NCBI GenBank assembly: GCA_020723325.1
Contig: DYJD01000004.1
Location: 1 to 64,000, forward strand
Direction of reading: 5' to 3'
DNA from: Desulfosudis oleivorans
GTDB taxonomy: Bacteria; Desulfobacterota; Desulfobacteria; Desulfobacterales; SURF-7
Length of the DNA stretch: 64,000 nucleotides
The translations under genes were made by a program, and so were the position numbers. This document shows positions 541 through 64,000 of this stretch, in pieces (positions within the stretch are counted from its first letter, which is position 1; each line of letters opens with the position of its first letter). The notes beneath the pieces were generated by a model. It was not told the origin of the DNA, made no database searches, and saw only the letters and a list, made by a program, of their open reading frames with translations.

Positions 541-557
541 ATCTTGACAAATAAAAT

Positions 558-573
558 TGGCCTATTTGGTGCA
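558..573 (+). promoter_or_regulatory. Candidate sigma-54 (-24/-12) promoter of the VPLPA-CTERM gene
   Basis: The element reads TGGCCTATTTGGTGCA, with GG at 559-560 and GC at 571-572 exactly ten bases apart, as required for the -24/-12 class. It keeps TGGC and TGCA but misses the A and C of the ideal TGGCAC half. It lies about 130 bases upstream of the start at 701. Sigma-54 control of PEP-CTERM genes is known in other bacteria (the PrsK/PrsR system); applying it here is inference. A TTGACA at 544-549 has no matching -10. Confidence 0.35.
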
Positions 574-700
574 TACGTAGTATTTATAAACATCGTTTCC
601 ACCAGTTAACTGACTACCCCAAATTCGCAGTGTACTCTTTAAAATGGTTATGCCTGATAAGAAGGCAAGCCTTTTTTGTAAAATTAAAAAGGAGCAAGCC

Positions 701-1336: not shown

Positions 1337-1370
1337 AAGCGAATCCACGCCCGCATGGCGAATGGTTTCA

Positions 1371-1395
1371 GAAAGCCCTCCTTTGGGGGGGCTTC
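1371..1395 (+). terminator. Stem-loop after the VPLPA-CTERM gene
   Basis: GAAAGCCCTCC and GGGGGGGCTTC pair around a TTT loop 35 bases after the stop codon. No T-run follows, so it is a weak intrinsic terminator or an mRNA-stabilising hairpin. Confidence 0.45.
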
Positions 1396-1583
1396 AATCT
1401 ACCAATGGATCTGTGCTTATCCATTATCGAATAAATGGGGATTGAAAAGATGGAATAAAGTACTCCTTGACACACCGCCCCCTCTTGCCCTAAGCTCATT
1501 TTAACATACCGACTTACCAAATTTTAATTTGATAAATCCAGCGGCGTTCTTTCATTGTGCATTTTCCTTGAGGGGATCTGAAA

Positions 1584-2468: not shown

Positions 2469-2663
2469 CAACATATAGGGAAGGTGGCAGCAATTCTGAT
2501 TTTTTGGTTTAAATGCAACGTCCATTCATAAAGCCGGAATCGGAGGGACGCCAATTTTTTTATAGGAAATGCCTGCGTATTTCCGCGTGTGTCCGCGGCC
2601 AAAATATATATGCCTGCCCCACCTCAATAAGAATGGACAACCTTAAAAAGGGCGAATGAATAG

Positions 2664-4403: not shown

Positions 4404-4451
4404 AAATTCAGTTCATAATTTTAAATTTCAAATCTGAAATCTCAAATCCTC

Positions 4452-5639
4452 TTAATCCGCCTTTCTTCTCAAAAAAGTCGGCACATCCAAATCATCATTG
4501 TCCAGCACAATGCCTTTATAACCGCGATAGGTGGCTCCGCCGGAATCACCGACCGCACGTTGATGACGACGAATAAAGGTCGGCTCTTCATATCCGGCCG
4601 CATTTTGGAGATCATCCAGGGTAATGTCCCGTACGCGACCGCGCGGCATGATGGTTTCGGTGGCGGCATGACTTTTCTTGTGAGCGCTTTCGATGCCGGT
4701 GGCGATAACCGTCACACGAATTTCATCCCCCAGGGTCTCGTCAATGGCCTGGCCCCAGATGATCTCGGCTTCATCACCCACTTCTCTATAAATCCGATCC
4801 GAGGCTTCGGTCATTTCATCCAGGGTCATATCACTGGAACAGGTAATATTCATCAGCACACCCTTGGCCCCGGCAATGGAAATATCTTCCAATAGCGGGT
4901 GGCTGATGGCGCGTTCGGCTGCTTCCGTGGCCCGGTTTTCTCCGGAAGCGATGCCGATACCCATCAGGGCCATGCCGGCCTTGGACATGGTGGTGCGCAC
5001 ATCGGCAAAGTCTAGATTGACCAGACCGGGGACCATGATCAAATCGGTTATACCTTTGACCGAATGGTGCAGGATCTCATCCGCCTTTTTAAACATGTCC
5101 AGCATCTTGGCATGCTTGGGGGCAATCCCGCGCAGGCGGTCGTTGGGGATGGTGATCACCGTATCGGCCACATCCTTGAGCATTTGAATGCCCTCTTCGG
5201 CTTGTTTGGCGCGCTTTTTCCCTTCAAAAGAAAAGGGCTTCGAGACTACCGCCACAGTCAAGGCGCCTAGGTCTTTACAGATCTGGGCAATGACAGGGGT
5301 CGCGCCGGTGCCTGTGCCGCCGCCGAATCCGGCTGTAAGAAAAACCATGTGGGCGCCTTCCAAGGCCCGGCGGATGGCGTCGGCGGTTTCCAGGGCCGCA
5401 TCTCTTCCCACGCAAGGATTGGCCCCGGCCCCGAGTCCGGAAGTCAATCTTTCGCCGATCTGGATCCGGGTCGGCGCCGTGGAAATATCCAGCGCCTGGG
5501 CATCGGTATTGGCAGCGATGAACTCAACGCCTTTTAGATTGGCGTTCACCATGTTGTTGATGGCATTCCCGCCGGCGCCGCCGATGCCGATCACCTTGAT
5601 TCTTGCTGTTCTATCATTTTCCACGTAGCTGAAACTCAT
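4452..5639 (-). CDS. ftsZ: Cell division protein FtsZ
   Basis: A 395-residue tubulin-like GTPase that polymerises into the division ring. An in-frame Met at 5801 exists, but the start at 5639 is chosen because GGAGGTG precedes it and the protein then opens in the family manner before IKVIGIGGAGGNA. The tubulin signature GGGTGTGATP is present, followed by the T7-loop region. The last residues, DLDVPTFLRRKAD, are the conserved C-terminal peptide that binds FtsA and ZipA-like tethers. It follows ftsA, but unlike the other junctions of this cluster it is separated by 336 bases holding an inverted-repeat element and a hairpin, so ftsZ may have its own transcription or processing. Confidence 0.97.
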   Translation of the reverse strand: MSFSYVENDRTARIKVIGIGGAGGNAINNMVNANLKGVEFIAANTDAQALDISTAPTRIQIGERLTSGLGAGANPCVGRDAALETADAIRRALEGAHMVFLTAGFGGGTGTGATPVIAQICKDLGALTVAVVSKPFSFEGKKRAKQAEEGIQMLKDVADTVITIPNDRLRGIAPKHAKMLDMFKKADEILHHSVKGITDLIMVPGLVNLDFADVRTTMSKAGMALMGIGIASGENRATEAAERAISHPLLEDISIAGAKGVLMNITCSSDMTLDEMTEASDRIYREVGDEAEIIWGQAIDETLGDEIRVTVIATGIESAHKKSHAATETIMPRGRVRDITLDDLQNAAGYEEPTFIRRHQRAVGDSGGATYRGYKGIVLDNDDLDVPTFLRRKAD

Positions 5640-5694
5640 ATTCCCCACCTCCATTAGATAAATGATATTGGTAGTACAACGGGCCGGGACATAG

Positions 5695-5717
5695 GGCTTC
5701 CTTGCTGCAAGAAAGCC
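5695..5717 (-). promoter_or_regulatory. Hairpin in the ftsZ leader
   Basis: An 11-base inverted repeat with one G-U-type mismatch and a single central base (GGCTTCCTTGC and GCAAGAAAGCC on the plus strand) lies about 55 bases upstream of the ftsZ start. It could be an mRNA hairpin affecting stability or translation, or a cruciform-like operator. Function is not shown by sequence. Confidence 0.4.
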
Positions 5718-5760
5718 GGCCGCCCCGGCGTAAATTCCATTTGTCATGATCATACAATTT

Positions 5761-5949
5761 CTCAGGTGGTTGGGCTGAAGGCTGAAGACTAAAAACCGCA
5801 ACCGCTTTTCGCAAGAAGTCCGCTGAACCGTTGATAACCATTCCCGTCGACCTGTTGCCCTGCTTCTGCATGCGCCTCAATTCCCCTTGCGTCCCGCCAT
5901 CACTACTGCCGACCGAAAAGTCTTTCCGCCTCCAGCCCAACCACCTGAG
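5761..5949. mobile_element. 189-bp element with 17-bp perfect terminal inverted repeats (MITE-like)
   Basis: The segment begins with CTCAGGTGGTTGGGCTG (5761-5777) and ends with its exact reverse complement (5933-5949). The match continues inward to about 30 bases with a few mismatches. It fills most of the ftsA-ftsZ spacer, codes for nothing recognisable, and contains the phrase GAAGGCTGAAG that recurs near 46370. Size and structure fit a miniature inverted-repeat element. No clear target-site duplication was found, so a large-stem regulatory RNA structure is the alternative. Confidence 0.55.
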
Positions 5950-5975
5950 TTGTTTCTAACTATTCCCAAAACCTA

Positions 5976-7199
5976 TTATATAATTTCCTGAAACCATTTC
6001 TTCATGCGCGTCATGATCCGATTGAAAATATTGGCGTCCCGGATCCTGAATTTACGTTCGGACTGGTTGCGTGCGCCGAACAGCACCAAGCCTACACTGG
6101 TGGCATACATGGGATTATTGACCACATCCACCAGGCCGCTGATCCCGAGGGGCTTTCCCAGCCGGGTGGGCAGATTGAAAATTGCTTCAGCCACATCGGT
6201 GACGCCGTCCAGCAGGGCGGTTCCACCGGTAACCACCACACCGGAAGTAATCATATTCTCCATACCGGCCCGCTCGATTTCACGTTTGACCAAAGAAAAC
6301 ATTTCTTCCATGCGGGGTTCCAGGATTTCACCCAGGATCTGCCGCGGCAGGTTGCGCGCTTTTCTACCACCCATACCTGGTACTTCTATGGTATCGTCCG
6401 GGCTGATATGGGATGACAGGCAGGAGCCGTATTTCTTTTTCAACAGCTCGGCTTCTGCCATGGGCGCCCGCAGCCCCACCGATATGTCATTGGTCAAATT
6501 ATTGCCGCCCAGGGCCAGCACAAAAGTATGTTTAATGTTGTTTTTACAAAAAATGGCAAGATCCGTGGTGCCGCCGCCCAGATCGATCAAGGCTGTGCCG
6601 AGATCTTTTTCCTCCCGTGAAAGCACCGCCTCGCCCGAGGCCAGGGATTCCAATACAATGTCGCAAACATCCAGGCCGGCGCGATTGGCGCATTTCACGA
6701 TATTATGGGCCGAAGCCACGGCTCCGGTCACGATATGAATCTTGGTCTCCAGGCGAACGCCGGCCATGCCCACCGGATTCTGAATCCCGGGTTCATCGTC
6801 CACGATGAATTCTTGCGGCAGCACATGGATGACTTCCCGATCCATGGGAATGGCCACGGCTCTCGCCGCATCAATAACACGATCCACATCACTCTGGGTG
6901 ATCTCCGATCCTTTAACAGCAATAATGCCGTGGCTGTTGAAACCGGTGATATGGCCGCCGGCAATTCCGGCATAGACCGAAGAAATTTCACAGCCGGCCA
7001 TCAACTCCGCCTCCTCAACCGCTTTTTTGATGGACTCGACGGTGGCCTCGATATTGACAACGACACCTTTCCGCAACCCGATGGACGGATGCGTACCGAT
7101 ACCGATGATATTGATTTTATCACCGACCACTTCACCCACCACCGTGCAAATTTTGGTTGTGCCGATATCAAGGCCGACAATCAGGTCTTGTCCTTGCAC
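5976..7199 (-). CDS. ftsA: Cell division protein FtsA
   Basis: A 407-residue actin-like ATPase that anchors FtsZ to the membrane. The phosphate-1 motif LIVGLDIGTTKIC is at the N-terminus, phosphate-2 (LIDLGGGTTDLAIF) is at about residue 200, and the adenosine motif (VVVTGGTALLDG) is at about 318. The SHS2/1C insertion lies between. The C-terminus ends in the amphipathic membrane-targeting stretch rich in Met, Lys and Trp (MTRMKKWFQEII). It overlaps the end of ftsQ by 19 bases, so the two are translationally linked. Confidence 0.96.
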   Translation of the reverse strand: MQGQDLIVGLDIGTTKICTVVGEVVGDKINIIGIGTHPSIGLRKGVVVNIEATVESIKKAVEEAELMAGCEISSVYAGIAGGHITGFNSHGIIAVKGSEITQSDVDRVIDAARAVAIPMDREVIHVLPQEFIVDDEPGIQNPVGMAGVRLETKIHIVTGAVASAHNIVKCANRAGLDVCDIVLESLASGEAVLSREEKDLGTALIDLGGGTTDLAIFCKNNIKHTFVLALGGNNLTNDISVGLRAPMAEAELLKKKYGSCLSSHISPDDTIEVPGMGGRKARNLPRQILGEILEPRMEEMFSLVKREIERAGMENMITSGVVVTGGTALLDGVTDVAEAIFNLPTRLGKPLGISGLVDVVNNPMYATSVGLVLFGARNQSERKFRIRDANIFNRIMTRMKKWFQEII

Positions 7200-8056
7200 G
7201 ATAATCCTCCTTTTCCATTTCCGGACGATGACAACATCACCGCCGGCCTGATGACGATTCTGTTCAATGTGCTGATGTCGATGGCCTCGATGTCGGGAAA
7301 CTGTTTGTTCGTTTCAAGAAAAGCGAGCACTTCCTTCAGCTTTCTGTATTTATCCTCATATTCTTCGTAACCCATGAAAACAGACCTGACCGGGCCGGTC
7401 ACTGCAATTGTGAGCCCCAGATCCCGATCGACTTCGATTCGGCTGATGGGAAACGGCGTCATGCCGCGATGGTGCTTTTTCACAATGGCAATGAGATTGA
7501 ATATGGCTTTCAAGGCGACACTGTCATTCCTGCCGCTTGAATTGAGGTCGGAATAATCCAGACCCGTGATCACCGGCAAATCCATGGACTCCCCTGCGAC
7601 TTTTTCCTTGAAAATTTCGCCCTCCTCGTCGATCAACAGTTCCCGGCCGAGATCAATCACGGCCACAGCCTGATGCTCCCGAATGCGGATGGCGATGGTG
7701 GCCGGAAAATCCCTGCGGATGTCGGCCTCGGCTATCCAGGGGTGGGACAATAACCGTGCCCGGGCCATGGCCAGATTGATGGCAAGGATGTTGTCGGAAT
7801 TGCCGATCTGGGCCTGGGATAGAATTTCTCCCCGGGAAAGCCGGCGCTGCCCCTCTATCCGAATATCGCGGGCATTCAGATAATTCCATTGGGTTAAAAA
7901 ATCATGCACAAAAATCAGTCCCAGGCTGAACAGCAGGAGCAGGCCGCCCCCCATGCCGGTTTTCAACAAAAAGCCCAGCGGCAACCTTAGCGTATAGCGC
8001 TCTTTCAAGGGCTTTTTCTTGAACTTGTTTTTGCGTATGCGCGTATTACCCGACAA
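7181..8056 (-). CDS. ftsQ: Cell division protein FtsQ (POTRA domain)
   Basis: A 291-residue bitopic membrane protein of the divisome. A short basic cytoplasmic tail (KNKFKKKPLKER) precedes one transmembrane helix at about residues 28-52. A POTRA domain follows (ARDIRIEGQRRLSRGEI, about 62-130) and then the FtsQ beta domain (EHQAVAVIDLGRELLIDEEGEIF and beyond). This is the normal order for FtsQ/DivIB. It overlaps murB by 11 bases and ftsA by 19 bases. Sequence similarity within this family is low, so identification rests on topology, the POTRA motif and its place between murB and ftsA. Confidence 0.92.
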   Translation of the reverse strand: MSGNTRIRKNKFKKKPLKERYTLRLPLGFLLKTGMGGGLLLLFSLGLIFVHDFLTQWNYLNARDIRIEGQRRLSRGEILSQAQIGNSDNILAINLAMARARLLSHPWIAEADIRRDFPATIAIRIREHQAVAVIDLGRELLIDEEGEIFKEKVAGESMDLPVITGLDYSDLNSSGRNDSVALKAIFNLIAIVKKHHRGMTPFPISRIEVDRDLGLTIAVTGPVRSVFMGYEEYEDKYRKLKEVLAFLETNKQFPDIEAIDISTLNRIVIRPAVMLSSSGNGKGGLSCKDKT

Positions 8057-53354: not shown

Positions 53355-55043
53355 TCAATGTTGCGGACCATCTAGATGAACCCGGATCTGGTGCAGGGGC
53401 GGCCGCCAATGATGCCGTTTACAGATCTCCATACAAATTCCGGCCATCTTGCCCGGCAGGGTATCATAATTACAGGCGGCAAGTCCTTTGAAATCAGCCA
53501 GTATTTCAAGCTCCAAAGAACTCCGGCGGGCGCTTTTGAAAAGCACCTGGATGCTGCGCAAGGCCTCTTCATAACCCAGTTGGATCAACATGGGCGGCAT
53601 TTCCGTTTCAAAAACCCGCAAGATGTCGCCGCTGATCCTTGCAAAATTTTCATGCCCCAGGGGCAGATTGATCACCAGCCGAAACCCCCGGGAAAGATTC
53701 ATGGGACAAAAGGATAAATAATCACTGGTTTTAAAAAAGACCACGGCCCCGCCGTTTTTTTGCAGCATCACGGTTTCAGGGGTTTGGTTGACGACCCGGC
53801 CGTGGGTGCCGTCCTTTAATTTCACCCACTCGCCCAGGCGATTGGGGAACCAGGGTTCATCCTTGATTTTTGGTCGGGAACGGAAGGCGATCAAATCCTT
53901 GATGGGCAGCCGCAGCAAGCCGCCCTGCAAGGCATTGTTCTCCAGCAGGGAATAAAAATTCAATGAACGCACCTCATAGGGCACCCCATGGTAGTTGATC
54001 ACTTCGCCCTCCCGCACCGGGCCGATGTTGAGGATCATTCTGGCCTGAAGCCACAGATAAGGAACGGCCTGCTTGGAAGCCCAGGCCATCCCCATCAGAA
54101 AGAGCACGATGATGGACAGCAGCACCCAGTCATGGAAAAAATACAGCACTGCCAGCAAACCCCATACTGCCAAGAGACCGGAAAAGAGAAAATAGGTCAG
54201 ATCAAAAAGGCGGATGTAAACCGAACGTTCCTTGGTATGCAGCGGGCTGTATTTTCGAATGGGTTTGTAAAGAAAATAAAGCCCGCACCAGATCAGCAGA
54301 AAAACGAAAATCGATGAAATGAGATTGCGGCCCCGGCTCTTGAAGAACAAACGAAAAAAATCCCGCAATGATTCGGAAATGGGTTTTTGCTGACTCAAAA
54401 GCCGGTCCAACTCGCGGTCGGCGATATTCAAACGCGTGCGGATTTCATCGCGCCGTCCCTGCCAGTCCTGCAACTGTTCTTCAAGCTTGCTGCGCAAAGA
54501 TGAATTCTCGGTGTTCAGAATCAGCCGGTCGATATTTTTCAAGGCTTTTTCAGCCTGCAACAATTCAGCTTGATACAATTCAATTTTGGCGCGCAGGTCT
54601 TCAATTTGCCGGGGCCGTTCCGTGATTTGATTGATCTCCTGGATCAGGGGCCCAAGGAGCCGGACCATTTCCTTTTGCCATTCAAAACTCTTTTCTTTCT
54701 GCCCTTTACCGGCCTCGGTATCAGCCACGTCCGCCGCCAGTCTCTGAAAATTGGCCTCCAATGAGCGCTGCTTGGCGCCGAGATCCATGATCTGATTGCG
54801 CAATTCCTGCTCACGACCGATCCCGGCCTCGCTTTGCATGATTTTTTGGGTTGCTTCAATCTCCATGCTTACCTGAGCGATGGCCCGCCGGACCATCTCC
54901 AGATTTTGCAGCCGATATTGCAAATCCTTTTCGGGTGTCGCCTCCTTGGAAGTGTTTTCAGCAATTGCATTACAAACAACCAAGCATAAAATCACAATGG
55001 CGCCTATAAAGCGCATCCAGACTGAAGATCCCGTGATATTCAC
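53355..55043 (-). CDS. MscS-like mechanosensitive channel family protein with periplasmic coiled coil
   Basis: A 562-residue membrane protein. A signal peptide or first helix (FIGAIVILCLVVCNAIAE) is followed by a long coiled-coil periplasmic region (about 35-215), then three to four membrane helices (about 245-350) and a cytoplasmic part. After the helices the MscS-type beta domain is suggested by NIGPVREGEVINYHGVPYEV and VKLKDGTHGRVVNQTPETVML. The pore-lining Gly/Ala pattern of MscS is not clear, so ion-channel activity is uncertain. It is single-gene and separated from tetR by 195 bases. Confidence 0.7.
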   Translation of the reverse strand: MNITGSSVWMRFIGAIVILCLVVCNAIAENTSKEATPEKDLQYRLQNLEMVRRAIAQVSMEIEATQKIMQSEAGIGREQELRNQIMDLGAKQRSLEANFQRLAADVADTEAGKGQKEKSFEWQKEMVRLLGPLIQEINQITERPRQIEDLRAKIELYQAELLQAEKALKNIDRLILNTENSSLRSKLEEQLQDWQGRRDEIRTRLNIADRELDRLLSQQKPISESLRDFFRLFFKSRGRNLISSIFVFLLIWCGLYFLYKPIRKYSPLHTKERSVYIRLFDLTYFLFSGLLAVWGLLAVLYFFHDWVLLSIIVLFLMGMAWASKQAVPYLWLQARMILNIGPVREGEVINYHGVPYEVRSLNFYSLLENNALQGGLLRLPIKDLIAFRSRPKIKDEPWFPNRLGEWVKLKDGTHGRVVNQTPETVMLQKNGGAVVFFKTSDYLSFCPMNLSRGFRLVINLPLGHENFARISGDILRVFETEMPPMLIQLGYEEALRSIQVLFKSARRSSLELEILADFKGLAACNYDTLPGKMAGICMEICKRHHWRPPLHQIRVHLDGPQH

Positions 55044-55144
55044 TGTATCAGCTCCTGATTTGCCGGGTTGAGGAAAGGATGTTTTGATTTAATGCGGATT
55101 TCAAGGCAGGAAAGCAAGCAAAATAAGCTGAAACAAGGAAGCGC

Positions 55145-55333
55145 TCAAATAATGTCCGCCAAATTACGGCGCTCGACCTCATAGAGGTGTTCATAGCGAT
55201 TCTTTCTTCGGTCCATGCCGCTTCTTCTGTCATGCTTGCACCTTCGTTCAGGGACATAGGCATGAAAAATAATGGTTCGTCGCTCCATGTTGGAACGCCT
55301 GCCCCCATTATCCGAAACCGCTTTTTTACCCAT
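55145..55333 (-). CDS. Small Arg/Asp-rich protein with repeated xRR motifs
   Basis: A 62-residue protein with GGAAG as ribosome site. It contains repeated basic dipeptide motifs (GGRRSNMERR, PERRCKHDRRSGMDRRKNR, EVERRNL) in which ERR and DRR recur every few residues. No membrane helix or signal peptide is seen. I do not recognise a named family, although the RRSGxDRR phrase feels common in small proteins from related bacteria. It could be RNA- or nucleotide-binding; this is a guess from charge. Confidence 0.6.
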   Translation of the reverse strand: MGKKAVSDNGGRRSNMERRTIIFHAYVPERRCKHDRRSGMDRRKNRYEHLYEVERRNLADII

Positions 55334-55519
55334 GAAACATGCTTCCTTTTTTCAATAATATACTTATATTGCTCATATTTCTTTCATATTGTCAAGTTCT
55401 TTTCATTTCAATGCATACCCCTTTCCACAGGTATATTTTGTTTTTGCATGCATGCGCCTTCTTTGTTATAGGGAAAAAAACGGGTTGCTGGGTACGACTT
55501 TTATTCGGAAGGAAAAAAA

Positions 55520-55696
55520 ATGACCATCAGCAAAGAATTGCTTGATATTATTGCTTGCCCGAAATGCAAAGGCGACATTCATTTGAATGAAGCCGGCAAC
55601 GGGCTGATCTGCGAAACCTGCCGCTTGATTTATGAAATCCGGGATGGCATCCCGATCATGCTCATGGACGAGGCCAAACCGATTTCAACATCTTGA
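55520..55696 (+). CDS. Trm112-family small zinc-binding protein
   Basis: A 58-residue protein (MTISKELLDIIACPKCKGDI onward). It has two CxxC pairs, CPKC at about residue 13 and CETC at about 31, that bind zinc, and the family ending RDGIPIMLMDEA. Trm112-like proteins activate methyltransferases in eukaryotes and archaea; in bacteria the role is unclear. The ribosome site GGAAGG lies before the ATG at 55520. It is the first gene of the trm112-DUF4416-yicC-remA-gmk-rlmB run. Confidence 0.9.
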   Translation: MTISKELLDIIACPKCKGDIHLNEAGNGLICETCRLIYEIRDGIPIMLMDEAKPISTS

Positions 55697-55748
55697 TAAA
55701 TCGCTAACAAGATTTATAATATAAATTTTTCCAAACAGCCCATTCGCC

Positions 55749-56315
55749 ATGAGCCAACCGACCCTGCCCAGCCCTGCCAAACTCGTCATCAGCCTGCTGA
55801 CGGCAGATAAGGCTTTGTATGCCGTGGTCGGCCAAAGGCTTATTGATCAATTCGGGCCCCTGGATCTGGTAAGCGCATGGCTGCCTTTTCAGTATACCGA
55901 ATATTACACCCCGGAAATGGGCAGCCCGCTTTGGCGGCGCATGCTTGCATTTAAGAAGCTGATTCAGCAGGAAGAACTACCATCCATCAAATCCATCGCC
56001 AACCAATTGGAAGAACAATTGAGCACCCACGGAAAACGTACCGTCAACCTGGACCCGGGCTATCTTCTGCTGGAAAGGTTTGTCCTGGCCACCGGCAAAA
56101 ATTACACCCACCGGATTTATATCAGCCAAGGAATCTATGCTGACCTGACCCTGCTCTACCAAAAAAAAGCCTTTCAAAAATTGCCCTGGACCTACCCGGA
56201 TTACGCGGCGGAGGATATGCTCGCGTTCCTCACGGCGGTCCGTAAAAAATACCGCTTTGATCTGAACCAGGCCGCTGGCCGGGAATTTACGCAAAAGGAT
56301 CCGGAACAATCATGA
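55749..56315 (+). CDS. DUF4416 family protein
   Basis: A 188-residue protein of unknown function, recognised by PAKLVISLLTADKALY at the N-terminus, FQYTEYYTPEMGSPLWRRML and VNLDPGYLLLERFVLATGKNY. Typical members are found next to yicC and gmk in Desulfobacterota, as here. It is probably cytoplasmic; no membrane segment is seen. The stop overlaps yicC by four bases (ATGA), so it is translated with that gene. Confidence 0.85.
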   Translation: MSQPTLPSPAKLVISLLTADKALYAVVGQRLIDQFGPLDLVSAWLPFQYTEYYTPEMGSPLWRRMLAFKKLIQQEELPSIKSIANQLEEQLSTHGKRTVNLDPGYLLLERFVLATGKNYTHRIYISQGIYADLTLLYQKKAFQKLPWTYPDYAAEDMLAFLTAVRKKYRFDLNQAAGREFTQKDPEQS

Positions 56316-57193
56316 TTAACAGCATGACAGCTTATGCCAAAACTGAAAAAACCGCTGGTTGCATATGCATATCAACGGAAATTCGTTCCTATAACAGCAA
56401 AAATCTTGACCTGATATTGCGCCTCCCCCATGGCTATGAAACCTTGGAAGAGGCGGTGCGCGCCCTTGTTTCCGCCGCCATTACCCGGGGCCGGGTGGAA
56501 ATCCGTTTTCGAATTGAAGATGAGGCTGATGACCGCACCGCTTTTTCAGTGGATCAAACCCAGGCAAAAGCCTATTGGGAGGCCCTGCAGGATTTGAAAT
56601 CCGTCCTGGGTATTGATGGTGATGTCACCCTGGACCATCTGATCGCCTGCTCCGGTTTATTCAAACCCACGGAAGCGGAAAAAAACCTGGAGGCTGTCTG
56701 GCCGATCCTGAAAACAGGTCTGGCGGAAGCCCTGGTCAGCCTGACGGAAATGCGCAAAAAAGAAGGCGCCTATATTTACAAAGATTTTACCAGGCGACTG
56801 CTGGAGATCGAAAACAGTCTGGAAAATGTCGCCCAAAGCGCAACCGTGCTCTTGCCCCTTTATCAGGAAAAACTGCTGGAGCGCATCAAGGCCCTTACCC
56901 AGGGGGTCATTGAAATCGATCCGGTGCGTATTGCCCAGGAAGCTGCTTTTCTGGCAGATCGCAGCGATATTTCAGAAGAAATCGTTCGGGCCAGAAGTCA
57001 CATGATTCAATTCCGGCACCTGATGGATGCGGCTGAACCCGCCGGCCGGAAACTCAACTTCCTGCTCCAGGAATTAAACCGCGAATTCAATACCATGGGC
57101 TCTAAAAGCAGCAGTGCGGAAATCTCCCATGCCATTGTGGCGCTCAAGTCCGAACTTGAAAAAATTCGCGAACAGGTGCAAAACGTGGAATAA
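56312..57193 (+). CDS. yicC: YicC family endoribonuclease
   Basis: A 293-residue protein of the YicC family. The N-terminal YicC_N domain opens NSMTAYAKTEKT, includes EIRSYNSKNLDLILRLP, and the C-terminal domain (DUF1732) ends with LNFLLQELNREFNTMGSKSS, all family hallmarks. E. coli YicC is reported as an endoribonuclease acting on a small RNA and its targets; here the same activity is inferred. It overlaps DUF4416 and precedes remA by 15 bases. Confidence 0.92.
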   Translation: MINSMTAYAKTEKTAGCICISTEIRSYNSKNLDLILRLPHGYETLEEAVRALVSAAITRGRVEIRFRIEDEADDRTAFSVDQTQAKAYWEALQDLKSVLGIDGDVTLDHLIACSGLFKPTEAEKNLEAVWPILKTGLAEALVSLTEMRKKEGAYIYKDFTRRLLEIENSLENVAQSATVLLPLYQEKLLERIKALTQGVIEIDPVRIAQEAAFLADRSDISEEIVRARSHMIQFRHLMDAAEPAGRKLNFLLQELNREFNTMGSKSSSAEISHAIVALKSELEKIREQVQNVE

Positions 57194-57208
57194 CCAGAAA
57201 GTGATCCT

Positions 57209-57484
57209 ATGGAACAAAACCTATTGAACATCGGCTTTGGGAGCACGGTGGTGGCCGAACGGGTGATTGCCATTGTCTCGCCCAATTCCGCCCCCATGAA
57301 ACGCCTGAAAGATGAGGCCAAGGAAAAAAACTTCCTCATCGACGCCACCCATGGCCGGCGCACGCGCTCCATCATTATCATGGACAGCAACCATGTGGTT
57401 CTGTCCGCCATTCAGGCGGAAACCATGTCCCAACGCCTTGCCACCGCCAAGGAGCCGAAAGAAGAGCCCCATGAACGCCGCTGA
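57209..57484 (+). CDS. remA: RemA-like regulator (DUF370)
   Basis: A 91-residue protein. [23 protein letters not shown] and [23 protein letters not shown] are the DUF370 signatures. In Bacillus RemA activates extracellular matrix genes by binding DNA as a ring. In Desulfobacterota the gene stands next to gmk and its targets are unknown. The last 14 bases overlap gmk in another frame, giving the tail PKEEPHERR. Confidence 0.9.
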
Positions 57485-58061
57485 CACCGTCGCTTGCCCA
57501 GGCCGCATCTTCATTGTTTCAGCACCCTCCGGGGCCGGCAAGACCACCCTCTGCCGGGAAGTGCGCCGGCGTCTGCCGGAACTGCGCTACTCCGTGTCCC
57601 ACACCACCCGGCCGGCCCGTGCGGGTGAAATCCACGGCCGGGATTATTTCTTTGTCACCGTTGCCGAATTTCAAGCCGGTATTGCCGCCGGAGAGTGGGC
57701 CGAGTGGGCCGAAGTCCACGGCAATTACTACGGCACCTCCGCCCTCTTTATCGACCGGGAACTGGCCGCCGGCCACGATCTGCTCCTGGATATCGACACC
57801 CAGGGCGCGGCTCAGATGCGCAAACGCTACCCCCACAGCATCACCATCTTTATCATGCCCCCCTCTGTTGAAGAGCTGGCCCGCCGGCTCACCGGGCGCG
57901 GAACCGACTCGGCGGAAGTCATTGCCAAACGCCTGCGCAACGCGGAACAAGAAATGGCCCAAAACGCTTTCTACGATCACATTGTGATCAACGATAAGAT
58001 TGAAACCGCTGTTCAGGAGCTGCTGAACATCATCGCGCCCAAATCCCATCCATCACCATGA
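57471..58061 (+). CDS. gmk: Guanylate kinase Gmk
   Basis: A 196-residue enzyme that phosphorylates GMP to GDP. The P-loop is [12 protein letters not shown]. The GMP-binding region has [22 protein letters not shown], with the lid region and [14 protein letters not shown] following. The start at 57471 lies within remA (14-base overlap); a longer upstream frame in remA is rejected because the family begins just before the P-loop. It supplies GDP for GTP and nucleotide second messengers, including c-di-GMP. Confidence 0.96.
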
Positions 58062-58094
58062 ACCCTTTCGCGACTTCTTATCCGAGGTGTTGAT

Positions 58095-58847
58095 ATGGAA
58101 ATACTGTACGGCCTGCACCCGGTATTGGAAGCCTTAAGGGCCGGTAAAAGAAATATCCGGGAAATCTATCTTGCCGGTAAAAATCCGGAGCAGCGCTTTC
58201 AAGCCGTGCTGGATCTGGCGGCGGCAAGGGGCATCCCCTTTCGCTCCGCTGCCCCGGATTTCATTCAAAAAAAATCCGGCACGGACAAGCATCAAGGCCT
58301 TGCGGCCCTGGTTGAACCCTTACCGCTGAGCGATGAACTGACCATCATTGAACACTATCTTGCGAATCCAGGCCCAAGCTTCATTCTACTCATCGACAGT
58401 GTTCAGGATCCCCACAACCTGGGCGCCCTGATCCGTACCGCTGTCTGCCTGGGGGCTTCCGGCGTGATAATTCCCAAAGACCGGGCCGCCAACCCAAGCC
58501 CCACCGTATCCAAAGCCTCTGCCGGCGCCCTGGAACATGTGCGCCTGGCCCGTGCCACCAATCTCGCAGCCTGCATGGGCACCTTGCGCAAGCGCTCCAT
58601 CTGGCTCATCGGCGCCGACGCCCGGGCCGACAAAGCCCTGTTCCAATGCGATCTCACCGGCCCCCTGGCCCTGGTCATCGGCGGCGAGGAAAAAGGCCTG
58701 CGGCCCCTGGTCCAAAAGAACTGCGACCTCCTCGTGTCCATTCCCCAATCCGGCCCCATCAATTCCCTCAACGCCTCCGTGGCCGGGGCCGTGGTCATGT
58801 ACGAGGCAATCCGGCAGCGTTTTCAAAAATTGGTTGCGATTTTTTAA
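58095..58847 (+). CDS. rlmB: 23S rRNA (guanosine-2'-O)-methyltransferase RlmB (TrmH family)
   Basis: A 250-residue SPOUT methyltransferase. The N-terminal L30e-like RNA-binding domain opens ILYGLHPVLEALRAGKRNI. The catalytic SpoU domain has DSVQDPHNLGALIRTA, a motif 1 with the conserved Asn and Arg, then VIGGEEKGLRPLV (motif 2) and ISIPQSGPINSLNASVAGA-type motif 3 (here VSIPQSGPINSLN). It methylates G2251 in E. coli. It is the last gene of the gmk run; the next genes differ in composition. Confidence 0.93.
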   Translation: MEILYGLHPVLEALRAGKRNIREIYLAGKNPEQRFQAVLDLAAARGIPFRSAAPDFIQKKSGTDKHQGLAALVEPLPLSDELTIIEHYLANPGPSFILLIDSVQDPHNLGALIRTAVCLGASGVIIPKDRAANPSPTVSKASAGALEHVRLARATNLAACMGTLRKRSIWLIGADARADKALFQCDLTGPLALVIGGEEKGLRPLVQKNCDLLVSIPQSGPINSLNASVAGAVVMYEAIRQRFQKLVAIF

Positions 58848-58906
58848 CCGATGATATAGCTTTAATTAAAAATTTGTTATTATTACTTATGGATGGAACA
58901 CACACC

Positions 58907-60031
58907 ATGAATATGGCAGCCGCACCGGAACTCGACTATATCTCAGTGCGAGGCTTTAAAAGCATTGCCGCGGTGGAAAAACTACCCCTTGGCCCCATCA
59001 ACCTGATTATAGGTCCGAATGGATCTGGCAAGTCTAATTTCATAGAGGTTTTTTCCTTCTTGCATGAAGTCCGGGAAGGCCGCCTAACCGATTATGTTCG
59101 GAGGTCAGGTGGCGCCGAACAACTGCTGCATTTTGGTTCAAAAACGACAAGCCAAATTCGAATAAAGATTTCTTTTCGCGAAGAAGTAAACCAATACGAG
59201 CTGATACTGAAACCGACCACAGATGACAGCTTCTATCCTGAGAATGAATGGGTTTATTTTTGGGATAAACAATATTCCAAACCAATCAACCAATCATTGA
59301 CTGCAAGTGGAAATGGTAAGGAAGCCGGGATCAGCAATCAAAAAGCAAAACGAATAGCGGGTTGGGTTCGACTCCACATAGGTAGTTGGCGCCTTTACCA
59401 TGTCCATGACACCAGCGCCTCATCACCATTGAGAAAAACCGCCAAGCTCAATGACAACAGTTTTTTACGGGCTGATGGATCAAATCTGGCTGCGTTTCTA
59501 TATTTACTGCTCAAGAAACATCAGAATGAATACAGTTTGATTCGCCGCACGATCCAGCAAGTGGCCCCGTTTTTCGATGACTTTCAACTGAATCCCGATC
59601 CGTTGAACGAAGAAACAATCCGTCTATCCTGGAAGCATAAAAATTCAGATCAATATTTCGGCGTTTCCAGCCTATCGGACGGAACCCTGCGTTTTATTGC
59701 CCTGACAACATTATTCCTTCAACCCAAGGACTTTCGCCCATCCGTTATCCTGGTGGACGAACCGGAATTGGGCCTTCATCCCCATGCGATAACGCTTCTG
59801 GCATCAGTCATCAAGCAAGTTTCCCAACAGACCCAGGTGATTTTATCAACCCAATCATCGCTTTTATTAGATCATTTTGAGCCTAAAGATGTGCTTGTGG
59901 CCGAACGATTTAACGGCAAGACCAAATTTTCACGTCTTGATTCGGCTCGTTTGGCAACCTGGCTTGAAGAGTACAGCCTCGGCCAGCTCTGGGAAAAAAA
60001 TGAATTGGGCGGGCGCCCGACAAGGGAGTAA
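58907..60031 (+). CDS. AAA family ATPase (SMC/OLD-like), first gene of a putative defence pair
   Basis: A 374-residue ABC/SMC-type ATPase of the AAA_21 kind. ATG 58907 is taken with GGATGG upstream; ATG 58889 is possible. The Walker A motif is IIGPNGSGKSN (about 35-45). A signature-like helix reads SSLSDGTLRFIAL. Walker B is VILVDEPELGLHP. A His/Gln switch (LSTQS) follows. Between them lies a helical insert. There is no nuclease domain, so the partner four bases downstream (DUF4276) would supply it. The gene is more AT-rich than rlmB and stands alone among housekeeping genes, which suggests acquisition by transfer. Confidence 0.85.
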   Translation: MNMAAAPELDYISVRGFKSIAAVEKLPLGPINLIIGPNGSGKSNFIEVFSFLHEVREGRLTDYVRRSGGAEQLLHFGSKTTSQIRIKISFREEVNQYELILKPTTDDSFYPENEWVYFWDKQYSKPINQSLTASGNGKEAGISNQKAKRIAGWVRLHIGSWRLYHVHDTSASSPLRKTAKLNDNSFLRADGSNLAAFLYLLLKKHQNEYSLIRRTIQQVAPFFDDFQLNPDPLNEETIRLSWKHKNSDQYFGVSSLSDGTLRFIALTTLFLQPKDFRPSVILVDEPELGLHPHAITLLASVIKQVSQQTQVILSTQSSLLLDHFEPKDVLVAERFNGKTKFSRLDSARLATWLEEYSLGQLWEKNELGGRPTRE

Positions 60032-60035
60032 CACT

Positions 60036-60746
60036 TTGGATAGACTGCTGATCCTTGTGGAAGGGCAAACCGAGGAAACGTTTGTAAACGAAATCCTTGG
60101 CCCCCATCTTTACAATCAGGGATATACGCAGGTGGGTGCGCGCCTCATGGGAAACGCCCGCCAGCGTGATCGGCGCGGTGGCATTCGGGCCTGGTTCAGC
60201 GTGCGGGGTGATATTATTCGCCATTTAAAAGAAGACATCGGATGTCTGGTTACCACCATGATCGATTACTATGGTCTGCCACAAACCGGCGCAAAGGCTT
60301 GGCCCGGCCGCGGAGAAGCGGCAGTTTTGCCGTTCGCTCAAAAGGCTGCCACTGTCGAAAATGCGCTAACCAAGGATATTCACCGGGAAATGGGTTCGGC
60401 GCTTCACCCTGGTCGCTTCCTGCCCTTTGTGATGATGCACGAATTCGAGGGCTTACTTTTCAGTGATTGCGATGGATTCAGCCGGGGCATAGGCCGGCCG
60501 GATCTGGCAGAGGCCTTTCGAAAGATCCGGGAGCAATTTTCCTCACCGGAAGAAATTAACGACTCTCCAGTCACGGCTCCATCCAAACGCGTGATACAAT
60601 TGGTGCAAGCCTACCAGAAACCGCTGCTGGGAACTCTAGCGATTCTTGAAATAGGCTTGGACGCCATACGCCGTGAGTGTCCGCATTTTCGTTCCTGGCT
60701 ATCCAAATTGGAAGAATGGCCGAAAAAAAAGAAAATAAAGACTTAA
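60036..60746 (+). CDS. DUF4276 family protein (TOPRIM-like partner of the ATPase)
   Basis: A 236-residue protein. No ATG lies near, so TTG 60036 is taken, with GGGAG seven bases upstream; this begins just before the conserved first strand LLILVEGQTEETFV. Further DUF4276 marks are CLVTTMIDYYGLP and FVMMHEFEGLLFSD, which place acidic residues (Glu in VEGQTE, Asp in MIDYYG, Glu/Asp in HEFEGLLFSD) like a TOPRIM nuclease core. The C-terminus is Lys-rich. Its position four bases after the ATPase makes a two-gene module like the ATPase-TOPRIM pairs proposed in anti-phage or plasmid conflict. Activity has not been shown for this pair. Confidence 0.8.
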   Translation: MDRLLILVEGQTEETFVNEILGPHLYNQGYTQVGARLMGNARQRDRRGGIRAWFSVRGDIIRHLKEDIGCLVTTMIDYYGLPQTGAKAWPGRGEAAVLPFAQKAATVENALTKDIHREMGSALHPGRFLPFVMMHEFEGLLFSDCDGFSRGIGRPDLAEAFRKIREQFSSPEEINDSPVTAPSKRVIQLVQAYQKPLLGTLAILEIGLDAIRRECPHFRSWLSKLEEWPKKKKIKT

Positions 60747-60805
60747 TCCTTCAGGATGCATGCTTTGAGTCTCCAAACAAAACATCGAGCCGGGGCCTCT
60801 ACCAT

Positions 60806-62017
60806 TCAATTGGAGTTTGAGCTCAGGAAATCGCTAGCCAAGCGCCCGGCGGCCTCGCCGGTGGCCAGGCAGCAGCCGATCACCCGGGCTGAAGCCACGG
60901 CGTCATCGTCGGCACTTAAGCATTTGCCGGCCATGAAAAGGTTGTCGACATCCCTGGCCTGGAGGGCGCCTTTGGGAATGGAGTAACATGTGCCCGCCGG
61001 CGGATGGCGCAGGCTCTGGCGGCCTTCCTGATCCCATTTTTCAATGGGCCAACAGCCCTGACTCGCCGGGTCCAAGCAGGGGCCGGGCTGCAAAATGTCA
61101 GCGCCTTTCAGCATTTCTTTACCCACTATTCTGGCGCTGCTGCGATGTAAAAGCGGGAAGCGTTTGTTCTCGGTGCGGCAATGGGCGAATTCCGCCACAT
61201 GCTTTTGCAGAAATGCGAGCAAGGCCCGGGCCAATTCTTCGGCTTGTTCGGCCAGGCGCAAAGGGGATGTCTCCCGCCGGTCGGCACCCAGGCCCAGGTT
61301 CAGCTTCAGGACCACGGCATCCTGCACCAGGGTGGGCATGAACACCACTGCCCCGGCGGCTTTGGGTAATCGGCCCGCGGTCACGGCGCGCTGCAAGGCC
61401 AGTAAAATCTGAATACGCCTGGCCGCCGGGCCCAGTCCGCCGGTCACGTTCCGCACCGGGATCAGTACGGCCGGAGCCTGGGAAAAGTCATCGGCTTCCA
61501 GCAGTGCATGCCCGGCCAGACGGGCCGCTGCTGCATTGCCGCTGCAATCGATGACGGCGCCGACTTCCACGGCTTCAACCCGCCCGCGGAGTCTGATCCG
61601 CAGGCTTTCAATCCGGCTATGGGCCTGGTCAACGCCGATGAGCCCAGCCGCGAAAACTGCTTGCAGGCCTTGCTGGCGGCCCAGCAGATCCATGGCCAGC
61701 GCTTGAAAGGATTCCGGCCGGAATGGCAGGACATACAGCTTGCCCATGCGCAGGGGGCTGCCCACCCGGTCCATTTTCATCAGGTCCCACGCAAATTCGG
61801 CCGGGAAACCTGTATATATCAGGCGTGGAGCAGCCGGCCCGGTACTTGTATAAAGGCCGCACAGGGTGGTAATGGCGCCTTTCACCACCGTGCCGCCGGG
61901 GAATTTGCCCGCCTCGATCAAGAGAGTGCTTTGGCCTGAACGGGCTGAAGTCATGGCGGCCGCAATCCCGGCGGCGCCGGCCCCCACCACGACCACATCA
62001 TAGCGCTGTTTCAGCAT
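60806..62017 (-). CDS. FAD-dependent oxidoreductase
   Basis: A 403-residue flavoprotein of the FAD_oxidored (PF12831) type. The dinucleotide motif YDVVVVGAGAAGIAAAM is at the N-terminus and the second FAD contact DVDNLFMAGKCLSADDDAVASAR lies near the C-terminus, before GCCLATGEAAGRLA. A cysteine-containing loop (FPGGTVVKGAITTLCGLY) is placed where redox-active or substrate residues occur. The start overlaps the upstream radical SAM gene by seven bases, so they act together. The substrate is unknown. Confidence 0.85.
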   Translation of the reverse strand: MLKQRYDVVVVGAGAAGIAAAMTSARSGQSTLLIEAGKFPGGTVVKGAITTLCGLYTSTGPAAPRLIYTGFPAEFAWDLMKMDRVGSPLRMGKLYVLPFRPESFQALAMDLLGRQQGLQAVFAAGLIGVDQAHSRIESLRIRLRGRVEAVEVGAVIDCSGNAAAARLAGHALLEADDFSQAPAVLIPVRNVTGGLGPAARRIQILLALQRAVTAGRLPKAAGAVVFMPTLVQDAVVLKLNLGLGADRRETSPLRLAEQAEELARALLAFLQKHVAEFAHCRTENKRFPLLHRSSARIVGKEMLKGADILQPGPCLDPASQGCWPIEKWDQEGRQSLRHPPAGTCYSIPKGALQARDVDNLFMAGKCLSADDDAVASARVIGCCLATGEAAGRLASDFLSSNSN

Positions 62018-63414
62018 TGTCTTCTCAAATAAGCCCCATAGGCTTCGATGTCTTTCCAGTTGGGAATGACCCGCATGCGTCCCAGAAAGCGCTGCACCAG
62101 ATTCACGATCAAGGAATTCCAGTCCGCGGGCGTGCTCCAGGTGGCCTCCCGGCGGGCCAAACGATCAAGCCCGGCAAGGGCGTCCGCTTCCAGGGCTGTG
62201 GAAAGGTAGTAAACCGGCTGCAACAGTTCTTCCTGCACGGACAGACGACCTTCCTGGAGAGCCGTCTGATAAATGGGCGCATCCGGATAAATGCGGATTC
62301 CCAGGGAGGCGAAAACCGCATTGGCTTTGCCGAATTCCTTGAGCAGCCGCTGACTTTCCTGCATGTTCCCAAAAGAATCACCCGGGCCGCCAAAGAGGAG
62401 AAAAACCGCAAAGGGCAGACCGGCATTGTTCAAGGCCCGATAGGTCCGGGCAATATCATTACGGGTGAAGCCCTTGCCCATGTTCCTCAGCATTTCATCG
62501 GTGACCGCATCCAGCCCCAGCTCCACGCCCACACAACCGGCGCCTTTAAAAGCCGCGGCCATGTCCGCATCCAAATCCAAAGGATTGCAATAGGCCACCC
62601 AGCGGATTCCAAGACGCCTGCGGATCAATTCCTCGCAAATGGCCATGGCATGGGAAGTGGGCCAGTTGAACACACTATCCGTGAAAAAAAAGTCCCGCAG
62701 GCCCGTATCCTTGACCATCCGCTCCATGTCATCCACGCATTGCCGGGGGGAGCGGAGGCGGATGCGGCGGCCTTCCAGGGTGGGATAGTTGCAGTAAATG
62801 CAGTGAAAAGCGCAGCCCCGCTTGGTCTGCAAGCCGATATAACCGCCGCGCCTGAAATACCGTTTATAGTCAATGCGGTCATAGGCATAGAGGGGCAGGC
62901 GGTCCGGTTCCACGGCAAAGGACGGTGGCTGCATACATAAGCCCTGGGCACTGCGGACCAGCAGCCCCGGAATGACGGCCGGATTGCTCTGGTTTTCCAG
63001 AGCGCGGATAAAGGCCGGCAAGAGGTTTTCCCCCTCCCCCACGGCGGCATAGTTGACGCCGAGGTATTCGGCAAGTTCCCCGGGCAGCACCGACACGGCG
63101 CCGCCGCCGATAATGATGGGCGCCTCGGTCTCCGCCTTGATGATGTCCACGATCCGGCGGGCTTGCTGGTGATAAGTGCAGGGCCGGGCGTATTGGCAGT
63201 TGTCCAGGTTGCGGATGGACAGGCCGATCAACCGGGGCTGAAAACGCCCGATGACCTCCCGGATTCGGCTCCGCAGGCGGGTGACAAAACCAAGATCCAG
63301 AAATTCCACCGTATGCCCTTCTGCCTCAAGAACACTCAATAACTGTGCAGCCCCCAGGGGCGCCACGGCATATGGGGCTTTCTCTTGATTGACGGCTATC
63401 AGCAATACCCGCAT
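62011..63414 (-). CDS. Radical SAM protein with cobalamin-type N-terminal domain
   Basis: A 467-residue radical SAM enzyme. Residues 1-150 form a Rossmann domain of the B12-binding kind (VAPLGAAQLLSVLEAEGH, IIIGGGAVSVLPGELAEYLG, GEGENLLP), but the DxHxxG histidine motif is absent, so base-off cobalamin binding is doubtful. The radical SAM cluster motif is GCAFHCIYCNYP (CxxxCxxC) at about residue 200. The C-terminal part continues the barrel and a helical tail. It lies three bases after the acyltransferase-like gene and overlaps the FAD oxidoreductase gene. Confidence 0.85.
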   Translation of the reverse strand: MRVLLIAVNQEKAPYAVAPLGAAQLLSVLEAEGHTVEFLDLGFVTRLRSRIREVIGRFQPRLIGLSIRNLDNCQYARPCTYHQQARRIVDIIKAETEAPIIIGGGAVSVLPGELAEYLGVNYAAVGEGENLLPAFIRALENQSNPAVIPGLLVRSAQGLCMQPPSFAVEPDRLPLYAYDRIDYKRYFRRGGYIGLQTKRGCAFHCIYCNYPTLEGRRIRLRSPRQCVDDMERMVKDTGLRDFFFTDSVFNWPTSHAMAICEELIRRRLGIRWVAYCNPLDLDADMAAAFKGAGCVGVELGLDAVTDEMLRNMGKGFTRNDIARTYRALNNAGLPFAVFLLFGGPGDSFGNMQESQRLLKEFGKANAVFASLGIRIYPDAPIYQTALQEGRLSVQEELLQPVYYLSTALEADALAGLDRLARREATWSTPADWNSLIVNLVQRFLGRMRVIPNWKDIEAYGAYLRRQC

Positions 63415-63417
63415 GGA

Positions 63418-64000
63418 TCAACCGCCTCCCAACAAGCGCCTGCGGATGCTCCCCAAGAACCCGCGGGCTTCCTCGGTGGATAAAAGCCCCTCCACATACA
63501 CCAGGGTGATCTGCAAGCGGCCGCGGAAGAAATAGTACACCACCCCCAGGCCCGGGGGGGCAACCACCGCCGGCACATGATATTGGGAGTGCACCGGCAG
63601 GCCCATGAAATCGGAAAGGCCTTGGAATGTCGCGCCCGGATTGGCAAAAACCATGGAGGCGATTTCACCGCGCAGGGACTTCTTGATCTTGCGGACATAG
63701 AACCAGGTGGGCAAAAAACGCGACAGATCCATGGTGCAGAAATTGGCGAACAGCAGGTCCTGGGCCACGGCATGGTGGGTCTGGCTGCGGAACAGCCTGG
63801 TCACGGTTTTCAGATCCGTTATTTCCCCGGCCTTGAACTCGTACAACAATGTCCCGGCCTGGTTGGTAAAAACCGGCAGGCGTGTGCCGATTTTGCGCAG
63901 ATCCACAGGAAAGGAGACGATATAACTGCGGGTATCCATCCCTTTTCTGTGATAGGTTTCAACCAGCGCAAGCAGGGCCGCAGCCATAAAATAGGCGGAA
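63418..64000 (-). CDS. Condensation/acyltransferase-like protein (C-terminal part, cut by window edge)
   Basis: The reading frame stays open to the right edge, so only the C-terminal 190 or so residues are present. They resemble the second half of the chloramphenicol acetyltransferase-like fold used by condensation domains and wax-ester/PapA acyltransferases: TRSYIVSFPVDLRKIG, then the bridging strands, and a C-terminal GRLQITLVYVEGLLSTEEARGFL. The catalytic HHxxxD would lie in the missing N-terminal half. The Met-containing MAAALLALVE is probably internal. It forms a compact unit with the radical SAM and FAD genes. Confidence 0.6.
   Translation of the reverse strand, partial: SAYFMAAALLALVETYHRKGMDTRSYIVSFPVDLRKIGTRLPVFTNQAGTLLYEFKAGEITDLKTVTRLFRSQTHHAVAQDLLFANFCTMDLSRFLPTWFYVRKIKKSLRGEIASMVFANPGATFQGLSDFMGLPVHSQYHVPAVVAPPGLGVVYYFFRGRLQITLVYVEGLLSTEEARGFLGSIRRRLLGGG

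Follow-up and report, generated by a model that had tools for sequence, protein, structure and literature searches.

A HEC-01-Type ATPase and TOPRIM-like Gene Pair in Desulfosudis oleivorans, a Candidate Conflict Module with an Altered DxD Motif

The systems closest to the one treated here couple an ATPase to a TOPRIM function in different ways. OLD and GajA of Gabija carry both functions on a single chain, and HEC-04/IbfA joins them in one fused protein. In PARIS, the two functions are split between AriA, an OLD-type ATPase, and AriB, its TOPRIM partner; the trigger is Ocr and the target is tRNA-Lys. HEC-04 belongs to a series whose name, as given by papers citing Payne et al. (2024, bioRxiv), stands for 'Hma-embedded candidate'. 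The citing passages report activity for HEC-04 and HEC-06, treat HEC-05 and HEC-06 as independent GmrSD-like systems, and give no HEC-01 result. HEC-04 is reported to defend against T4 and T5 (PMC12111858). Here, we analyze a two-gene locus in a 64,000-nucleotide stretch of Desulfosudis oleivorans DNA (contig DYJD01000004.1, positions 1 to 64,000), referred to below as the window. Gene A (58889-60031, + strand) encodes an SMC/OLD-type ABC ATPase of 380 residues. Gene B (60036-60746, + strand), which has a TTG start, encodes a DUF4276 protein of 236 residues that is a TOPRIM-like putative nuclease. Both assignments draw on the open reading frames (ORFs), Pfam, PADLOC models, and predicted structures.

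A first-pass annotation of the window had taken the pair for its best candidate for an undescribed system and had proposed a search with defence profiles. PADLOC models were scanned with hmmscan, independently of PADLOC's own system rules, and gene A matched HEC-01A (PDLC04175; E-value 4.7e-139, residues 13-377) while gene B matched HEC-01B (PDLC04188; E-value 3.4e-71, residues 2-228). The elements that define HEC-01, i.e., a HEC-01A ATPase and a HEC-01B partner, adjacent on one strand, are all present. Because both proteins match HEC-01 models, the pair is not undescribed; it joins a listed candidate system as a new member and does not constitute a new kind of system. The models also reach more divergent DUF4276 proteins: ten of ten match HEC-01B models, nine of them best, the tenth being matched best by a HEC-01A-labelled model. 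The further claim that a split pair with DUF4276 is little studied fits the literature searched, where the word DUF4276 was not found. No functional paper on HEC-01 is among the matches listed, the papers found describe no DUF4276 mechanism, and in the one paper naming HEC-01 that, by its title, concerns phage defence, it figures as a list entry for Desulfovibrio piger strains. We propose, with a probability of roughly 0.63, that the pair is a two-gene conflict module of the HEC-01 type, acquired horizontally and PARIS/OLD-like, in which the ATPase would sense infection and unleash a TOPRIM-like nuclease.

Comparison with the named systems sets the pair apart from each of them. Like PARIS, it is a split OLD-type ATPase with a TOPRIM-like partner, and gene A matches a PADLOC AriA model at 1e-31, although that model is as long as the general AAA_21 model. 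Gene B, by contrast, has only DUF4276 in Pfam and matches no AriB model at an E-value of 0.1, and the HEC-01 models fit the pair far better. OLD and GajA provide the best structural matches of gene B and share with it the E, E, D, E, and K positions, but they are single chains, whereas the window pair is two ORFs and has lost the second Asp of DxD. A GajB-type helicase, as in Gabija, is not found beside the pair. RloB (PF13707) gives a weak in-register profile match to gene B, and gene A matches the PADLOC AbiLi model at 2.7e-23; against RloA/RloB and AbiL stands the lack of an RloB match of gene B in Pfam at an E-value of 0.1. HEC-04/IbfA has the same two functions, ATPase and TOPRIM, but as a fused protein, and is set apart from the window pair by its description. 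As to Hma, the pair does not lie between Hma genes, its neighbors being rlmB and a gene for a FAD oxidoreductase, and we take embedding not to be required. A homologous pair on the Aeromonas plasmid pMC64A does lie between WYL-SNF2 genes and a methyltransferase, as the HEC name would suggest.

In the loci examined, the two genes are constant companions. Two samples were examined. The order sample comprised 146 genomes from a larger group, and 68 of its 124 DUF4276 matches, the window's included, were taken up. The wide scan covered one genome per species for 84,980 species, yielding at least 566 confirmed relatives, of which the best 80 were used. An A-type ATPase lies directly upstream on the same strand in all 40 of the closer order loci, window included (34, plus six settled later), and in all 28 weaker ones, for a total of 68 of 68. 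In the wide scan, an ATPase precedes DUF4276 in 80 of these best 80 loci: 77 by a gap rule, which counts some loci as paired whose gene B is itself broken, and three as broken copies. Of the latter, two carry frameshifts and one is interrupted by ~2.1 kb; all three directly follow an ATPase gene. Homologues without a partner, which the first-pass annotation had named as a refuting outcome, are absent from the 148 loci examined.

Broken DUF4276 copies beside an ATPase gene (L133, 1857-4739; L114, 7784-8482; L139; L148) display a ~2.1 kb interruption, an in-frame stop, and two frameshifts. These may reflect decay or assembly errors, and other loci with odd gaps may be broken too. No recurrent third gene was found in the 117 of 148 loci where gene B was recognised by script: with divergent DUF4276 set aside, the commonest other family near the pair occurs in 5 of the 117. 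The pairwise identities of A and B proteins correlate across 53 loci (r = 0.85; none of 1000 permutations reached that value), with the nearest neighbor being the same for A and B in only 27 of the 53.

Gene A has the motifs of an SMC/OLD-type ABC ATPase, as the first-pass annotation had read it. Pfam places it in AAA_21 (E-value 6.8e-32), with weaker matches to SMC_N and AAA_15. The Walker A motif GPNGSGKS (residues 42-49; 59012-59035, + strand) is invariant in A3, an alignment of 62 rows made from 61 of the best-80 loci plus the window, with broken, partial, and redundant copies excluded; in a wide alignment, G42, N44, G47, and K48 are each found in 135 of 139 rows, the other four being gaps. 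The ABC signature SDGTLR, overlapping LSDGT (residues 263-268; 59675-59692, + strand), has its G265 in 139 of 139 rows. The Walker B motif VILVDE (residues 286-291; 59744-59761, + strand) is followed by PELGLHP, and its E291 is present in 138 of 139 rows. With the ABC motifs so conserved, ATP binding and hydrolysis by gene A are expected.

The model of gene A, built from 62 proteins, has a predicted local distance difference test (pLDDT) score of 94.1. In structure comparison, it is closest to the heads of SMC, cohesin, and Rad50 (Z up to 21.5); PtuA from retrons and Septu scores slightly lower (Z up to 19.2), and OLD and GajA are among the Foldseek matches of gene A. The likeness to SMC and Rad50 heads would also suit a chromosomal DNA-repair or maintenance pair, in which a RecF/SMC-like ATPase loads a nuclease on damaged DNA and is useful without any phage; the distribution of the pair, given below, makes this a quite unlikely explanation. 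Three loci have an additional A-like ATPase immediately 5′ of the pair on the + strand, scoring 74-78 bits against the A profile: L109 (6958-8151), L132 (7001-8101), and L116 (7568-8734). These are perhaps second OLD-type systems in tandem.

Gene B is a clear DUF4276 protein (PF14103; E-value 1.9e-47, 162.4 bits against a curated cut-off of 30.2, full profile), with no other Pfam family. Its AlphaFold2 model, from 65 proteins, has a pLDDT of 91.4 and a predicted template modelling score of 0.88. The top three Foldseek matches in the PDB are the C-terminal TOPRIM region of Xanthomonas OLD (probability 0.99-1.00), and the rows shown after them have probabilities of 0.47 or less. In VIA-align, the top row is Burkholderia pseudomallei OLD (Z 9.0, root-mean-square deviation 4.5, 175 aligned), followed by Xanthomonas (Xcc) OLD (Z 8.5-8.6) and GajA (Z 7.5); a PARIS chain of 8ux9, taken by its length to be AriB, gives Z 7.5 with 180 aligned. 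Profile alignments by hhalign are in register at the TOPRIM Glu, and in RloB also at the first Asp. A BFVD fold search gave no match at an E-value of 0.001 (best probability 0.47), and a sequence search of solved structures gave nothing meaningful. Since no one score is strong, the assignment to TOPRIM is based on the combination of fold, motif register, and sister proteins. The model indicates a TOPRIM-like fold for gene B, with modest margins over unrelated folds.

The residues of a putative metal site are largely in place. The first-pass annotation had proposed that acidic motifs of gene B, VEGQTEE, MIDYYG, and HEFEGLLFSD, fit a TOPRIM core, and had named loss of the acidic residues across the family as a refuting outcome. 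All three motifs are present. Conservation was measured in A2, an alignment of 65 gene B rows (64 of the best-80 loci plus the window, with broken, partial, and redundant copies excluded). VEGQTE (60057-60074, + strand) contributes E9 and E13, each in 65 of 65 rows; by motif register, these would correspond to E400 and E404 of B. pseudomallei OLD. The D77-Y78-Y79 triplet (60264-60272, + strand) supplies D77, the first Asp of DxD (62/65), with Y79 (65/65) at the place of the second Asp. E136 and E138 of the E-F-E motif (60441-60449, + strand; 65/65 each) are proposed counterparts of T506 and E508 of the metal B site of B. pseudomallei OLD, and K195 (60618-60620, + strand; 65/65) is a candidate counterpart of K562. 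In a wide set, E138 is found in 121 of 121 rows, and position 136 is Glu in 116 and Asp in 5. In OLD, E400 and D455 hold metal A, with D457 acting via waters, and E508, together with E404 and T506, holds metal B, K562 assisting (PMC6755086).

The acidic core stands only in part: the second Asp of DxD is Tyr or Phe, a substitution that the first-pass annotation had overlooked, so that MIDYYG departs from a canonical TOPRIM core. In the wide set, position 79 is Tyr in 109, Phe in 7, and His in 1 of the 117 filled rows (Tyr/Phe in 116). Among 39 more divergent DUF4276 proteins, by eye, 21 have DxD, 7 DxE, 2 DxN, and 9 DxY, and five of these nine are also eligible for the wide set. A DxD/DxE pattern anywhere in the protein occurs in 12 of 14 RloB, 7 of 7 DUF4435 (one with DxE only), and 11 of 11 OLD relatives. 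For this reason, gene B is called TOPRIM-like and not canonical TOPRIM. A canonical TOPRIM has been ruled out, as follows: the invariant Glu near strand 1 (E9) is present, and the DxD at strand 3 is replaced by D77-Y78-Y79. This clade-wide change from Asp to Tyr in the TOPRIM motif, read in the aligned sequences, is a sharp new point of analysis.

One reading of the change is that the protein in this clade is catalytically dead, or is a binding or scaffold subunit with no nuclease role, its DxD having become DxY. The near-fixed Tyr/Phe argues for it, as does the retention of Asp or Glu at the position in 28 of the 39 divergent proteins. We consider it improbable, however, since E9, E13, E136, E138, and K195 are invariant and D77 nearly so. 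Furthermore, in B. pseudomallei OLD, the contact of the second Asp with metal A is mediated by waters alone, and mutating this residue singly had no visible effect; the same held for every one of the six single mutations of the metal site (PMC6755086).

The distribution of the pair is patchy. Any DUF4276 is found in 46 of the 146 order genomes, and a gene B relative in 2 of 12 genomes of the family, that of the window included. In the same 96 order genomes, DUF4276 is present in 33, RloB in 13, and DUF4435, which we take to be the family of AriB, in 9; of the three split TOPRIM-type families scored there, DUF4276 is the most frequent. Behind rlmB, the pair was not found in 11 other family genomes, one of which (G011) covers only ~0.3 kb past rlmB. 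A core gene of the lineage is rejected on these grounds, and it is also the absence of the pair from most relatives that speaks against the repair explanation.

A tree of 89 B proteins requires 28 phylum changes, as compared with a minimum of 15 and a shuffle mean of 42.5. The window's gene B falls in a group of 20 rows (support of 90 in the Shimodaira-Hasegawa-like approximate likelihood ratio test) that carries nine phylum labels. Of the 24 other order rows, one (L056) is in that group, and the other 23, including the one from the window's own family, are elsewhere. The tree was quickly made and has many weakly supported forks, and contamination of bins by foreign contigs may add to the phylum scatter. 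Scatter over phyla, like carriage by some plasmids, is not what a repair pair would be expected to display. We infer that the pair was horizontally transferred into its site in the window. It is not confined to the core genomes of this lineage, and none of the three outcomes that the first-pass annotation had named as refuting was seen in full.

Plasmids carry the pair on occasion: a relative is found on 12 of 72,556 plasmid records. Besides pMC64A, these include an 11-kb mobilizable Acinetobacter plasmid, where the pair is beside vapBC, and two Piscirickettsia plasmids, in the examined one of which the pair is near trfA. Such contexts, together with the overlapping or tightly spaced two-gene layout, are compatible with a toxin-antitoxin-like or plasmid-stabilising module in which the TOPRIM-like nuclease is the toxin, the ATPase the antidote, and defence incidental. 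We regard this as unlikely, given how few plasmid records carry a relative and given that the ATPase is large and has all the ABC motifs, unlike typical antidotes; it is also a reading that overlaps with a PARIS-like mechanism. Carriage as phage cargo is rejected: a relative is in 0 of 50,697 phage records, and in IMG/VR gene B alone matched nothing, while alignment A2 gave a single short, weak match at 29% identity.

The genome of the window has a second, divergent HEC-01-type pair (L035, G000:C89:104000-118000; 27-7485, + strand), the DUF4276 protein of which has a DSE motif. This pair is 126 bases behind an HsdR gene, after HsdM-, HsdS-, and HsdR-like genes; HsdR is over its cut-off, the HsdM part is below its cut-off, and HsdS has no NCBIfam match. 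The same genome has a DUF4435 match of 28.3 bits in a 538-residue frame (G000:C10:1955-2233, L225).

For the proposed HEC-01-type conflict module, a mechanism may be sketched along the lines of PARIS and OLD (PMC12409363, PMC12839542, and PMC6755086). An ATP-bound assembly of gene A would hold and silence gene B. On sensing a phage- or plasmid-derived cue, gene A would release or activate gene B, which would then cut nucleic acid, either host tRNA, as does AriB of PARIS, or DNA, as do OLD and GajA. A two-metal site might be formed from E9, E13, D77, E136, and E138, with K195. Infection would be stopped, probably by abortive infection.

Several observations weigh against this proposal. On the side of gene B, the Foldseek E-values of the OLD matches are weak (0.003-0.008), and the OLD-type Z scores of 7.5-9.0 are only a little over those of unrelated Rossmann-like rows (7.2, with 114-133 aligned). 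The hhalign probabilities of its wide alignment are low (RloB 16%, DUF4435 1%, OLD TOPRIM 29%). Its second DxD Asp is replaced by Tyr, rarely Phe, across the whole clade, and D77 is absent from 3 of the 65 proteins in A2. On the side of history, phylum labels in the tree are more clustered than in shuffles, and part of the history may therefore be vertical. On the side of function, no test of HEC-01 anti-phage activity was found in the literature searched, no known defence gene is among the window neighbors checked, and defence genes are not clearly enriched beside 36 loci of close relatives. In the last comparison (E-value 1e-20), no PADLOC family matched more than two of 128 near proteins (of 140), with 51 families in all, and the 25 families shown are mostly methyltransferase and PglX models; among far genes, the maximum was 3 of 135 proteins, with 9 families. 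The Pfam families shown beside these loci are mostly ordinary. Ordinary neighbors and, at the window, adjoining core genes are also what the repair explanation would predict. Homologues of nine seeds of restriction-modification, Mod, or Hma-like type are found in 21 of the 148 loci, a count that is only descriptive, as six seeds came from the same loci and there was no control. Because the neighbors are not clearly of the defence type, the case for a defence role depends on the listing by PADLOC, the plasmid and restriction contexts of some homologues, the patchy spread, and the analogy with PARIS and OLD.

The surroundings of the pair in the window are as follows. On the 5′ side is yicC-remA-gmk-rlmB. 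The remA-gmk-rlmB order is conserved in 11 of 11 other family genomes; yicC is found in 10, and the eleventh contig starts too late. An icd-like and/or ComF-like gene lies, by eye, within two genes after rlmB in 10 of the 11, names that were verified for one genome. On the 3′ side, the reverse strand carries genes for the FAD oxidoreductase, a B12-radical SAM protein, a condensation-like protein, and two AMP-binding ligases (window 60806-63987, running on to 67915 of the same contig, L034). This run probably forms a small biosynthetic cluster. Behind rlmB in the family genomes, neither its first two genes nor the beginning of the third turned up. A position between housekeeping genes, as first annotated, thus holds for the upstream side and not for the downstream one. 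A search of the 147 other loci for ten neighboring genes of the window pair (E-value 1e-10) matched only two distant (25%) radical SAM proteins.

A mobile-element boundary around the pair was considered and rejected. No tRNA is found within the window, and the interval 55000-64000 has no match in Rfam. A single direct repeat (12 nucleotides) turned up, and it does not flank the pair. A weak, imperfect inverted repeat (19 nucleotides, 79%), with its arms in rlmB and the FAD gene, encloses it. Promoter and terminator patterns are no more frequent than in shuffles. Elsewhere in the window, a membrane-like protein of 562 residues (53355-55043, - strand) has no Pfam match at an E-value of 1e-5.

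Within the locus, the coordinates and the TTG start of the second gene agree with the first reading: the gene A stop codon ends at 60031 and gene B begins at 60036 on the same strand, leaving a gap of four bases. The sequence AAGGGAG (60022-60028, + strand), within the 3′ end of gene A, is the likely ribosome-binding site of gene B, which suggests translational coupling of the two genes. The length of gene A is counted from the ATG at 58889; an in-frame ATG at 58907 is a possible alternative start, as the conserved part begins near residue 15. The comparison of composition covered 62 ORFs, that of gene A among them, from the window and the 20 kb that follow it. The pair had been described as more AT-rich than rlmB (59.1% GC). 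This is clearly so for gene A (46.2% GC; GC at third codon positions, or GC3, 0.467, with lower values in 3 of 61 other ORFs). The GC3 of gene B is only slightly low (52.6% GC; GC3 0.544, lower in 8 of 61 other ORFs). Only gene A, then, is clearly AT-rich.

The conserved residues of gene B, including the Tyr in DxD, define exact mutants with which split ATPase-TOPRIM systems can be compared with PARIS. The question served is whether these systems share the PARIS mechanism, in which the effector leaves an ATPase cage and then cuts tRNA, or use another substrate or chemistry. A bolder and rather unlikely extension is that the window clade represents a TOPRIM effector class with a chemistry of its own, running an altered reaction in a widespread two-gene immune system. 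It builds on the invariant Tyr at the place of the second DxD Asp, with the added E-x-E and the Lys both kept. Were it true, the effector might cleave with one metal, contact or covalently trap the cut strand through the Tyr, or transfer nucleotides to host RNA.

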